In this document: piece by piece, positions 60,150 through 64,000 of the stretch
Numbering within the stretch: position 1 is the stretch's first letter
Layout of the letters: each line of letters begins with the position of its first letter
Assembly: GCA_020849475.1 (NCBI GenBank)
Contig: JADLGE010000003.1
Coordinates: forward strand, 1-64,000
Reading direction: 5' to 3'
Length of the DNA: 64,000 nt
From: Gammaproteobacteria bacterium
GTDB taxonomy: Bacteria; Pseudomonadota; Gammaproteobacteria; Ga0077536
The notes under the pieces: model-generated
Seen by the model: only the letters and a program-made list of their open reading frames with translations
What the model was told of the DNA's origin: nothing
Databases searched by the model: none
Translations under genes and position numbers: made by a program

Positions 60150-61859
60150 ATGTCCGCCATCGGAACACCTCGCACTTTCGGGCGCAGCGCCGCCGTCACC
60201 ACGCCGTCGCGGCTGCGGCTGTTCAGTGGCAACTCCGGCATGGCCATGCGCATGCGCCAGATAGACTGGGAGCACACCGAGCTCGGCGCGCCCGAGCACT
60301 GGTCCCACGCCATGCGCACCGCGCTGACCCTGTGCCTGGGCTCCAGGCTGTGCAGCTGCATCTACTGGGGCCCGCAGCACCTGTTGCTGTACAACGACGC
60401 GTTCGCCTCCCTGCTCGGCACCAAGCATCCGTGGGCGCTGCTGCAACCGGCCGACGTGGTGTGGCCCGAGATTTTCGAGACCATGCAGCCGCAGCTCGAA
60501 GCGACCCTGTACCGGGGCGAGTCGAGCGGCACCGTCGATTCGCCGAGCTTCATCAATCGCCGCGGCTATCTGGAAGAGTTCTACTGCACCTATAGCTACG
60601 CGCCCATCGTCAACGAATACGAGCAGATTGAAGGCGCCTTCGTGACGGTGCCGGAAACCTCCACGCGCGTGATCGCCGAGCGGCGCCTGCACACCTTGCA
60701 GCGCCTCGGTCTTTCCACCCGGCGCGCGCGGCGCAGCGAAGAGACGCTGCGGGTGGCGGCCGAAGTGCTGACCGAGAATCCCTACGACATTCCGTTCGCC
60801 GCGCTCTACCTGTGCGATGAAGACGGTGAGCAGGCGCAGCTGCACGCGGTCGCCATCATCGACAGCGAGCATCCCCTCTGCCCGGCGCTGCTGCGCGCCG
60901 ACAGCGCGTCGCCGCTCGCCCATTTTGTGACGCGCGACGTGCGCCCGCTGCTGCAATTTCTCGATGTCTCGTCGACCATGCATCCCCTGCCGCTCGGCGC
61001 ATGGCGCATTCCGGCGCAGCAGCTCGCGGTGCTGTCGCTGGTCTCGCCCGACACCCGCGCGCCGCGCGCCATCGTGGTGGCGGGCGTCAGCCCGCACAAA
61101 CGTCTGGACGATGACCACATCACCTTCTTCCGCATGCTCGCCGATCAGATCATGCGTGCGCTCGGCGAAGCTTTCGCCCATCAGCAGGAAGACGCGCGCA
61201 TCAAGGCCCTGCAGACCCGCGCGCGGGTCGCGCAGCAGGAAGAGCGTCTGCGCATCGCGCGCGATCTGCACGACACCCTCTTGCAGAGCGTGCAAGGCAT
61301 GCAGTTCATGCTCGAAGCCGGTCTCGAACGCGTCAAGGCCGGCGACCCGTCGGCGGCCGATCTGTTCACGCGCGCGCTGGCGGCGTCCGGCCATGCGGTG
61401 ACCGAAGGACGCGAAGTGCTGTCGCTGCTGCGTTCGTCGTCGCACGGCGTGTATGAACTGTCGGCGCGCCTCGACAACCTGTGCGCCGAGCTCACCACCG
61501 AGGCCGATGCGCGCTGCGTGGTTGAAATCGAAGGTCTGGAACGCAACATCAACCCCAGCATCTCGAGCGAAATCCAGGTCATCTGCCGCGAGGCCGGCCT
61601 GAACGCAGTGCGGCATGCCAATGCGCGAGTGATACGCCTGCATGTGCAGTTCGGCGACGATCTCACGGTCGAAGTGAGCGATGACGGCGCTGGCATCCGC
61701 GAAGAATTCATGATCAATGGCCGGCCAGGCCACTATGGCATCCGTGGCATGCGCGAACGCGCCGCCACCATCGGCGCACAGCTGCAATTGCAGCGGCGAC
61801 AGTGCGGTGGCACCGCGGTAAGATTGACCCTGCCGGGCAGCTCGGCATATCTGGATTGA
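60150..61859 (+). CDS. Sensor histidine kinase, NarL-type, cytosolic
   Basis: 569 aa, no membrane helix. A PAS-like N-terminal domain (CSCIYWGPQHLLLYNDAFA), then a GAF-like domain (FAALYLCDEDGEQAQLHAVA), then HisKA_3 with phospho-acceptor in RIARDLHDTLLQSVQG and an HATPase with EAGLNAVRHANA and GIRGMRERA. PAS plus GAF suggests a small-molecule or redox signal. The start at 60150 is a judgement, with ATG 60240 possible. The regulator follows ten bases downstream. Confidence 0.87.
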   Translation: MSAIGTPRTFGRSAAVTTPSRLRLFSGNSGMAMRMRQIDWEHTELGAPEHWSHAMRTALTLCLGSRLCSCIYWGPQHLLLYNDAFASLLGTKHPWALLQPADVVWPEIFETMQPQLEATLYRGESSGTVDSPSFINRRGYLEEFYCTYSYAPIVNEYEQIEGAFVTVPETSTRVIAERRLHTLQRLGLSTRRARRSEETLRVAAEVLTENPYDIPFAALYLCDEDGEQAQLHAVAIIDSEHPLCPALLRADSASPLAHFVTRDVRPLLQFLDVSSTMHPLPLGAWRIPAQQLAVLSLVSPDTRAPRAIVVAGVSPHKRLDDDHITFFRMLADQIMRALGEAFAHQQEDARIKALQTRARVAQQEERLRIARDLHDTLLQSVQGMQFMLEAGLERVKAGDPSAADLFTRALAASGHAVTEGREVLSLLRSSSHGVYELSARLDNLCAELTTEADARCVVEIEGLERNINPSISSEIQVICREAGLNAVRHANARVIRLHVQFGDDLTVEVSDDGAGIREEFMINGRPGHYGIRGMRERAATIGAQLQLQRRQCGGTAVRLTLPGSSAYLD

Positions 61860-61869
61860 AGGACAGCAC

Positions 61870-62511
61870 GTGTTGGCACAAAACATCACCCCCTCGGCCA
61901 TCCGCGTCATGTGCGTGGACGACCATCCGATTTTCCGCGAAGGCCTGTCGGCGGTGCTCGCCAATGACCCCGGCTTCGAGCTGGTGGCCGAAGCCGGCAC
62001 CGGCGAAGAAGCGATCGAGAAATTCCGCACCTTCCGGCCCGACGTCACGCTCATGGACCTGCGCCTGCCGGGCATCTCGGGCACCGAGGCCATCGCCGCC
62101 ATCCGCGCCGAGTTTCCCGACGCGCGCATCGTGGTGCTGACCACCGAGACCGGCGATGTGCCCATGCAGCGCACGCTCAACGCCGGCGCCAAAGGCTATG
62201 TGCTGAAGGGCATGGCGATGTCGGAACTGCTGGACATCATCCGCAGCGTCAACGCCGGCAAGACCCGCATTCCGGAGCGCGTCGCGACCCATATCGCCGA
62301 GCATCTCACCGACAAGAACCTGTCGGCGCGAGAACTCGAAGTGCTGAAGCTGATTGCCGGCGGCCATCGCAATCGCGAAATCGCCCACAAGCTTTCGATC
62401 AGCGAAGAAACGGTCAAGATGCACGTGCGCAACATCATGGTGAAACTCAACGCCAATGATCGCACCCACGCTGTCACCATCGCGGTGCGGCGCGGCTTCA
62501 TCACCCTCTAG
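61870..62511 (+). CDS. LuxR/NarL-family response regulator
   Basis: 213 aa with GTG start behind AAGGACAG. Receiver: CVDDHPIFREGL, phospho-acceptor Asp in VTLMDLRLPG, Lys in GYVLKGMAMSE. C-terminal LuxR-type HTH: LSARELEVLKLIAGGHRNREIAHKL. It pairs with the kinase ten bases upstream. Confidence 0.94.
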   Translation: MLAQNITPSAIRVMCVDDHPIFREGLSAVLANDPGFELVAEAGTGEEAIEKFRTFRPDVTLMDLRLPGISGTEAIAAIRAEFPDARIVVLTTETGDVPMQRTLNAGAKGYVLKGMAMSELLDIIRSVNAGKTRIPERVATHIAEHLTDKNLSARELEVLKLIAGGHRNREIAHKLSISEETVKMHVRNIMVKLNANDRTHAVTIAVRRGFITL

Positions 62512-62584: not shown

Positions 62585-64000
62585 GTGACCCCGCGCCCCG
62601 AAATCACGTTCACACGCGAGACCTGGCAGCACTGGCTGGCCCAGATTCACGCCTTCGCGCGCGCGCCGGACGCCGGCCTCATGGCGCGCACCCTGTTCGC
62701 GGTGGTGATCTTTTTTGCGCTGGCGTGCAATGGCTTGAACGTCGTCAACAGCTACGTCGGGCGCAATTTCATGACCGCGCTGGCCGAGAAAGATCACCAC
62801 GGCTTCATGGCCCAGGCGCTGGTGTGGGTCGGTGTGTTCGCGGTGGCCACGGTGATGTCGGTGCTCGGCCGTTACTACGAAGACCGCCTCGGCCTTATGT
62901 GGCGCAACTGGGCGACCACTCGCCTCATCGAGCGCTACATGGCGCGGCGTAATTACCTCAAGGTCGCGACCGTCGCCGGCATCGAGAATCCCGATCAGCG
63001 CATCGCCGAGGACGTCAAATCCTTCACCACCGTGACCCTCTCGTTCGTGCTGATGATTTTCAACGGCAGCCTGACGGTGATCTCGTTCGCCGCCGTGTTG
63101 TGGTCAATCAGTCCCGCCCTGTTCGGCGTGGGCGTGCTGTATGCGGCGGTCGGCACTTTGCTCAGCCTGCTGCTCGGCCGACCCTTGGTGCGTTTGAACT
63201 ATCAGCAGCTGGATCGCGAAGCGGACTTTCGCGCGGCGCTGGTGCACGTCAAGGAAAACGCCGCGCTCGTTGCGCTGACCGGACGCGAAGGCAATTTCTC
63301 CGGGCATCTGCGCCGCCATCTCGATCACCTGGTGGAAAATGCCGGGCGCGTGATCGTGGTCCAGCGTAACCTGAGTTTCTTCACCACCGGCTACAACTGG
63401 CTCATCCAGATCATTCCGGCGCTGATGGTCGCACCGCTGTTCATGCGCGGCGACATCGAGTTCGGCGTCATCACGCAGTCAGCCGTGGCCTTCACCCATC
63501 TGCTCGGCGCGTTTTCATTGATAGTCACCCAGACCCAGTTGCTGTCGTCGCTGGCGGCGGTGGTGACGCGCCTCGACGCCTTGATCATGGCCATCGACAA
63601 CGGCGAGCACGATCCACACCACGGCATCACCACCGTTGAAGACGACGGCCGCCTGGCGTTTGAAAACGTCACCATGCTCTCGGCCCACCGCCACCGCATC
63701 CTGATTGCGGATCTGAACCTGGTGCTGCTGCCGGGCGCCTGCCTGCTGGTGCGCGGCGCGCAGAACGACGTGCGCGCGGTGCTGATGCGCACCACCGCCG
63801 GCATCCGCAACTGGGGCCGCGGTCGCATCATCCGCCCACGCAACGAGCAGATGATGTTCGTCACCGAGCAGCCCTATCTGCCGGACGGCACCTTGCTCGA
63901 AGTGCTGCTGGCCGACGACCGCGAGCAGGCCGACGTGCAGTCCTATCGCGACACCGTGCTCGCCACTTTGCGCATGGTCGGGCTGGAAGCCGTGCTGGCG
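62585..64000 (+). CDS. ABC transporter permease/ATPase of the SbmA/YddA type, partial, with abnormal NBD
   Basis: The gene runs off the window; 472 residues are visible. The N-terminal membrane part matches ABC_membrane_2/SbmA-like exporters (WRNWATTRLIERYMA, then ENPDQRIAEDVKSF). The nucleotide-binding domain starts near residue 365 (RLAFENVTMLS). Where a Walker A GxxGxGKS/T is expected after LVLLPGACLLV, it reads GAQNDVRA (residues 391-398), and the Q-loop position in FVTEQPYLPDGT is Glu. The family context WGRGRI downstream is kept, so this is sequence decay or specialisation rather than a misread frame. The GTG start is inferred from the family pattern. Confidence 0.82.
   Translation, partial: MTPRPEITFTRETWQHWLAQIHAFARAPDAGLMARTLFAVVIFFALACNGLNVVNSYVGRNFMTALAEKDHHGFMAQALVWVGVFAVATVMSVLGRYYEDRLGLMWRNWATTRLIERYMARRNYLKVATVAGIENPDQRIAEDVKSFTTVTLSFVLMIFNGSLTVISFAAVLWSISPALFGVGVLYAAVGTLLSLLLGRPLVRLNYQQLDREADFRAALVHVKENAALVALTGREGNFSGHLRRHLDHLVENAGRVIVVQRNLSFFTTGYNWLIQIIPALMVAPLFMRGDIEFGVITQSAVAFTHLLGAFSLIVTQTQLLSSLAAVVTRLDALIMAIDNGEHDPHHGITTVEDDGRLAFENVTMLSAHRHRILIADLNLVLLPGACLLVRGAQNDVRAVLMRTTAGIRNWGRGRIIRPRNEQMMFVTEQPYLPDGTLLEVLLADDREQADVQSYRDTVLATLRMVGLEAVLA

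Follow-up and report, generated by a model that had tools for sequence, protein, structure and literature searches.

A widespread family of ABC half-transporters retains a nucleotide-binding domain with a degenerate ATP site

Does an ABC transporter gene without a usable P-loop encode a broken protein, the inactive half of a pair, or a half-transporter with a new role? This question is raised by a gene at the end of a 64,000-nucleotide stretch of gammaproteobacterial DNA (contig JADLGE010000003.1, positions 1 to 64,000), referred to here as the window. An earlier note made from this sequence had read GAQNDVRA, with no Lys, in the P-loop position and Glu for the Q-loop Gln in an open frame. It proposed either an ATPase-dead half with a new role or a protein working with a second, active partner. 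The gene, which starts near GTG 62585 or ATG 62456, runs out of the window and was read further on the same contig (C3), where the frame stays open and the gene is complete with a stop at base 64324 (full gene, L003:586-2325; product of about 580 aa). Its product is a half transporter of the YddA/BclA/ABCD type, composed of a transmembrane domain (TMD) and a nucleotide-binding domain (NBD). The TMD scores 126.9 bits with PF06472 (Pfam cut-off 24.4); the NBD gave no PF00005 match in the Pfam search, while residues 348-561 still hit the NBD portion of the ABCD profile TIGR00954. Its fusion C-terminal to the TMD is supported by the TIGR00954 match, by the predicted structure of an orthologue with 89% identity and by whole-length matches to 6tqe and the ABCD proteins. 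In the AlphaFold model of this orthologue the NBD is well folded (pLDDT mostly 79-93), and the top Foldseek matches of the modelled transporter are Rv1819c and ABCD1/3/4.

Table 1. Positions of the transporter gene, its motifs and the upstream regulatory genes in the window
Feature	Position	Strand	Basis
Sensor histidine kinase-like gene	60240..61859	+	Upstream of regulator; gene calls, comparison with L035, L036, L037, L038
NarL-type response regulator gene	61870..62511	+	Just upstream of transporter; gene calls, comparison with L035, L036, L037, L038
ABC half-transporter gene with dead NBD	62585..64000	+	Open frame; PF06472 E 1.2e-36; runs on to base 64324
Transmembrane domain, ABC_membrane_2 (PF06472)	62684..63442	+	Pfam match; AlphaFold helices
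Degenerate Walker A, GAQNDVRA for GxxGxGKS/T	63755..63778	+	Alignment with paralogue and homologues
Q-loop position, Gln replaced by Glu	63866..63868	+	Alignment; in the family Glu 60/79, Gln 16/79

The P-loop reading was borne out by the translation and by alignment with the canonical paralogue of the same genome, in which GAQNDVRA falls column for column on GPSGSGKS; there is no N among the bases of the motif. G4, G6 and S/T8 of GxxGxGKS/T are lost and the K7 position is occupied by Arg. The Q-loop exchange stands as well. Where the paralogue has GPSGSGKST, FLPQRPY, LSPGEQQ, LDEATSALD and SIAHRP, the window's protein displays GAQNDVRAV, FVTEQPY, LTIGEQQ, LERLSVTLE and no His. Hence the Walker B Asp and the catalytic Glu are replaced (ER for DE), as are the D-loop Asp and the H-loop His, while the signature is kept. 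None of the elements that make up a working ATP site remains: Walker A, Walker B including its catalytic Glu and the H-loop His are all replaced, and the degeneration of the NBD goes further than the window alone shows. The view that the remaining NBD is conserved in pattern therefore holds for the fold and the signature but not for Walker B, the D-loop and the H-loop.

Five genomes of the same family carry orthologues with 89, 68, 50, 48 and 46% identity, over a total of three genera. Their frames are open, and all five are dead at the same NBD positions as the window's protein. The dN/dS between the window's gene and its nearest orthologue is 0.117 for the NBD and 0.069 for the TMD. For the intact paralogue the NBD value is similar, 0.102, which indicates that the dead NBD is under purifying selection. 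Sequencing error, frameshift and pseudogene are ruled out by the dead but open orthologues together with the NBD dN/dS. Of the findings that the earlier note held fatal to its reading, there is no frameshift or error whose correction would restore a P-loop, and no intact orthologue was found in these close relatives; the first of its proposals, an ATPase-dead half that took on a new role, is thus supported. The 89% orthologue, with its operon, is carried by a record titled as a Klebsiella pneumoniae MAG (L042, CAMCBY010000122.1), a title that looks wrong. In-frame stop codons were seen in two genes of the dead family, one at L110:5766-5768 and one at L062:11393-11395 (Thiocystis violacea DSM 207); the latter lies inside the NBD, past the Q-loop, and this isolate may be losing its NBD.

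To assess the extent of the family, 84,980 species genomes were scanned with a pair of TMD peptides, so that the state of the NBD had no influence on retrieval; this yielded 117 relatives. The best 80 of the 117 were retained by similarity to the query, so that more distant or intermediate members were possibly missed. According to record titles, the hosts among these best 80 loci include Chromatiaceae, Methylococcales, Rhizobium/Phyllobacterium/Mesorhizobium, Verrucomicrobia, Gemmatimonadetes (Gemmatimonadota), 'Deltaproteobacteria', Polyangiaceae and Binatia. Motifs were scored in 79 dead-family sequences, including the window's gene, and in 29 canonical relatives. GxxGxGK[ST] occurs in 0/79 of the former and 29/29 of the latter; the degeneration seen in GAQNDVRA is thus not due to chance. 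The catalytic Glu is likewise absent from 79/79 and present in 29/29. Furthermore, nearly all dead-family members have lost the P-loop glycines, Walker A T9 is Ala in 74/79, and the eight most frequent residues at the H-loop position do not include His. The Walker A Lys (K7) is retained in 30/79, the Walker B Asp in 59/79 and the first signature Gln in 75/79. The window's protein thus lacks the P-loop Lys, a loss that the family as a whole does not share, and with Lys surviving in part of the family weak nucleotide binding would be conceivable. These proteins form a widespread and overlooked family of dead-NBD transporters.

In the TMD trees all dead members fall into a single clade (SH-aLRT 100; bootstrap/aLRT 100/100 in a second tree). 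Proteins with an intact NBD lie just outside it, L147-L149 and L178 as the nearest group, followed by L146. Given this topology, the simplest reading is that the ATPase was lost before the clade radiated. Dead members are more alike in the TMD than in the NBD in 2988/2988 pairs (means 0.58 vs 0.41), whereas canonical members are more alike in the NBD in 71% of pairs; the constraint is hence reversed in the dead family. Three residues, T89, D210 and Q275, do not vary within the dead clade and differ from those of both canonical and sister proteins, which would make them the best candidates for residues changed along with the energy source. Two other PF06472 groups were observed. Rhizobiales proteins L195 and L200-L204 make up a second group, in which Walker A is broken (GDHNVNRKL, SEAGIDRTL) and the H-loop His missing while the Walker B DE is kept; they form a clade of their own (100/100) apart from the window's family. 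L150, L151 and L152 ('Deltaproteobacteria'/Polyangiaceae) form a further clade, in which L152 is partly degenerate (GSGKRT, Q-loop Glu, LDG, and DRA for HRP).

The family could represent a stage after ATPase loss and before NBD loss, that is, a proton-coupled secondary transporter similar to SbmA/BacA. The TMD of SbmA/BacA works without an ATPase, and SbmA has been proposed to descend from a YddA-like ancestor that lost its NBD; its glutamate ladder comprises E193, E203, E269, E276, E287 and E378 (PMC13316013). The positions of E193 and E276 are acidic in nearly all dead-family members, and the new invariant D210, which is Arg in canonical relatives, is found two residues before the second acidic ladder position. 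However, the positions of E203, E269, E287 and E378 are mostly Leu, Asn, Arg/Lys and Ser/Ala/Thr/Asn, respectively, and the dead clade does not group with SbmA, a long branch, in the TMD tree. With two of the six positions acidic and four absent, an SbmA-type ladder was rejected and the known proton route is inapplicable. Proton coupling of the SbmA/BacA kind is thus unlikely, with about one chance in its favour for every several against.

Each of six close genomes contains one dead and exactly one intact YddA-type PF06472 protein, as expected if the dead protein were half of a heterodimer with one working site, as in TM287/288. In the window's own genome (G000), which does have the intact paralogue, the latter sits on a different contig (C106). 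PF06472 proteins were counted in 43 other genomes with the dead gene, in two sets sharing G407. The dead protein is the only PF06472 protein in 12/43 (eleven in one set and G436 in the other), while G170 (complete, one contig), G407 and G434 have two each, both dead. Hence an intact YddA-type partner is not required: at least 15/43 genomes, including complete G170, have no PF06472 protein with an intact NBD, and an obligate partner of this type was rejected as a general rule. Moreover, the intact gene is also kept in genomes from which the dead gene is absent, and no partner from other ABC families is encoded within the window's operon. The second, active partner is therefore unsupported as a general mechanism, and we grant a heterodimer with the YddA-type paralogue a small chance.

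The gene neighbourhood was examined next to the transporter and across the family. Directly 3' of the transporter gene follow genes for a 1016-aa and then a 1113-aa protein (C3 64321-67371 and 67368-70709), with overlapping stop and start codons. From its SOGP_N, SOGP_2nd and SOGP_4th domains and its match to 5h3z (2e-165), the 1113-aa protein is a predicted homologue of 1,2-β-oligoglucan phosphorylase (SOGP). The 1016-aa protein matched no catalytic Pfam family, but a structural model built for its orthologue (pLDDT 88.7) is similar to GH94 phosphorylases, GH15-type enzymes and cyclic glucan synthase, with modest TM-scores of 0.39-0.46 among the top matches; it is called the GH94-fold enzyme below. 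Inspection of the sequences revealed no obvious signal peptide at the start of either enzyme. The order dead ABC, GH94-fold enzyme, SOGP homologue is kept in three genera. An endo-β-1,2-glucanase gene (PF10091/GH144 or MdoG/GH186) is not adjacent here, whereas MdoG or PF10091 is present in many relatives' loci. The window's genome has no PF10091 match but contains two MdoG/OpgG genes elsewhere than this locus, and periplasmic β-1,2-glucan is consequently likely to be present.

At least one of eight scanned glucan or linked families is found at 58/80 loci and none at 22/80. The raw counts over the 80 loci, with no background rate, are 31 for the GH94-fold enzyme, 18 for GH1, 17 for GH94, 15 for phosphoketolase, 13 for PF10091, 12 for SOGP and 10 each for OpgG and OpgH-like GT2; phosphoketolase, not a glucan enzyme, was counted as linked only. 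Neighbours are unrelated at several Methylococcales loci, and at Rhizobiales loci the counted neighbour is often phosphoketolase rather than a glucan enzyme. At the Rhizobiales loci L080, L083, L094, L101, L103, L108, L113-L115, L118 and L119, phosphoketolase (XFP) and PF10091 genes recur in the vicinity of the dead transporter. When the search started from the GH94-fold enzyme, PF10091 was close by in 9/11 distant loci examined, and those with annotation also encode, between these two genes or next to them, components of a binding-protein-dependent sugar importer: a solute-binding protein, permeases or a MalK-like ATPase. Thiocapsa sp. KS1 displays the row SOGP, enzyme, ABC, whose ABC member has an intact NBD (GASGTGKSS ... 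LDEATSALD) and is a sister of the dead family. Together with the distant importer loci, this indicates that bacteria differ in what occupies the transporter slot beside the enzyme, some having ATP-driven machines there and others the dead-NBD protein.

The linkage to these enzymes, the dead NBD and the histidine kinase/response regulator pair alongside in this genus would also suit a protein that is no longer a transporter and acts as a membrane scaffold or sensor for β-glucan enzymes or the glucan level. Yet the TMD is the most constrained part, with many invariant positions, in other bacteria genuine transporters occupy this operon position, and the kinase pair is unlinked in other genera. 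We give such a role a chance that is small at best. The pair (60240-62511), which is linked to the transporter also in G002, was set aside as a part of the system, being absent there in other genera; it possibly serves local regulation of the operon. That the protein is still an ATPase, or ATP-gated, through non-canonical residues (the Lys of part of the family, the Q-loop Glu, a Walker B Glu/Asp) is very improbable: K7, the Walker B Asp and the first signature Gln do persist in the proportions given above, but no member has the catalytic Glu and hardly any the P-loop glycines, and Lys, Walker B Asp and His are jointly missing from the window's protein.

An operon with sugar-polymer enzymes and a dead but retained ATPase suggests a pump turned into an ATP-free transporter. 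The explanation that we favour builds on the dead motifs, the single clade, the purifying selection, the genomes without an intact PF06472 partner and the β-glucan linkage; homodimer, cargo, direction and energy source are what we infer from there. In this explanation the common ancestor of the dead clade lost its ATPase, the NBD was retained as a folded domain, and the protein acts as an ATP-independent homodimer for β-1,2-glucan oligosaccharides, a proposal that we hold to be evenly balanced between right and wrong. The NBD would be kept as a structural domain, folded, probably dimer-forming and coupled to the TMD, which holds the dimer together and couples the TMD halves without ATP hydrolysis. 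The homodimer would pass β-1,2-glucan-derived oligosaccharides over the inner membrane either by facilitated passage or by coupling to an ion gradient along a route that differs from SbmA's. In the cytoplasm the GH94-type enzymes (the SOGP homologue and its GH94-fold partner) would trap the sugar as glucose-1-phosphate, and this phosphorolytic trapping would pull oligosaccharide inward. The transporter is thus probably an importer; direction and cargo are read from the gene neighbourhood, and phosphorylases are reversible, which counts against reading a direction from them. The fuller proposal, in which a single ATPase loss in a multi-phylum clade left a structural or gating NBD in a homodimer moving β-1,2-gluco-oligosaccharides by phosphorolytic pull, as an extant transitional form linking ABC pumps to SbmA-like secondary carriers, falls somewhat short of an even chance.

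If true, a clade with a retained NBD and every ATP site dead would illustrate how a primary pump comes by a different energy source. The transition from pump to carrier would then be open to testing, since intact-NBD relatives lie just outside the clade and one of them (Thiocapsa) is beside homologues of the same enzymes. The family also provides a candidate transporter for the turnover of osmoregulated periplasmic glucans. Furthermore, it is an annotation trap, as automatic pipelines would label all its members ATP-driven.

It is well established that one of an ABC transporter's ATP sites can be dead. YddA/BclA with an ATPase, SbmA without an NBD and half-degenerate heterodimers have all been described (PMC13316013, PMC12003926, PMC7756269). 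A literature search found no clade or homodimer with a fully dead, retained NBD of this kind, which is weak evidence given that subscription journals were mostly outside its coverage. Rv1819c of M. tuberculosis (PDB 6tqe) and human ABCD1/3/4, the best sequence (E 4.5e-43) and structure matches, are like the window's protein in TMD type, domain order and NBD fold, but in the alignments they retain the ATP site that it has lost. YddA/BclA, to which the intact paralogue of the window's genome belongs, share the ABC_membrane_2 TMD and the fused NBD, and BclA transport depends on ATP hydrolysis (PMC12003926); in the dead family, by contrast, the P-loop and the catalytic Glu are lost in all 79 sequences and His is not among the commonest H-loop residues. 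TM287/288, TmrAB and MsRv1273c/72c have also lost catalytic residues in a retained NBD (PMC7756269), but one site of each dimer is active, whereas many genomes with the dead family have no intact-NBD PF06472 partner. Cgt, the cyclic β-glucan exporter of Brucella, is an ABC transporter for β-1,2-glucan, from which the cargo proposed here would derive; however, it is ATP-driven and only a lower-ranked fold match (7zo8). SbmA/BacA (SLiPT) share an ABC-type TMD with the dead family but have no NBD, whereas the dead family retains its NBD under purifying selection.
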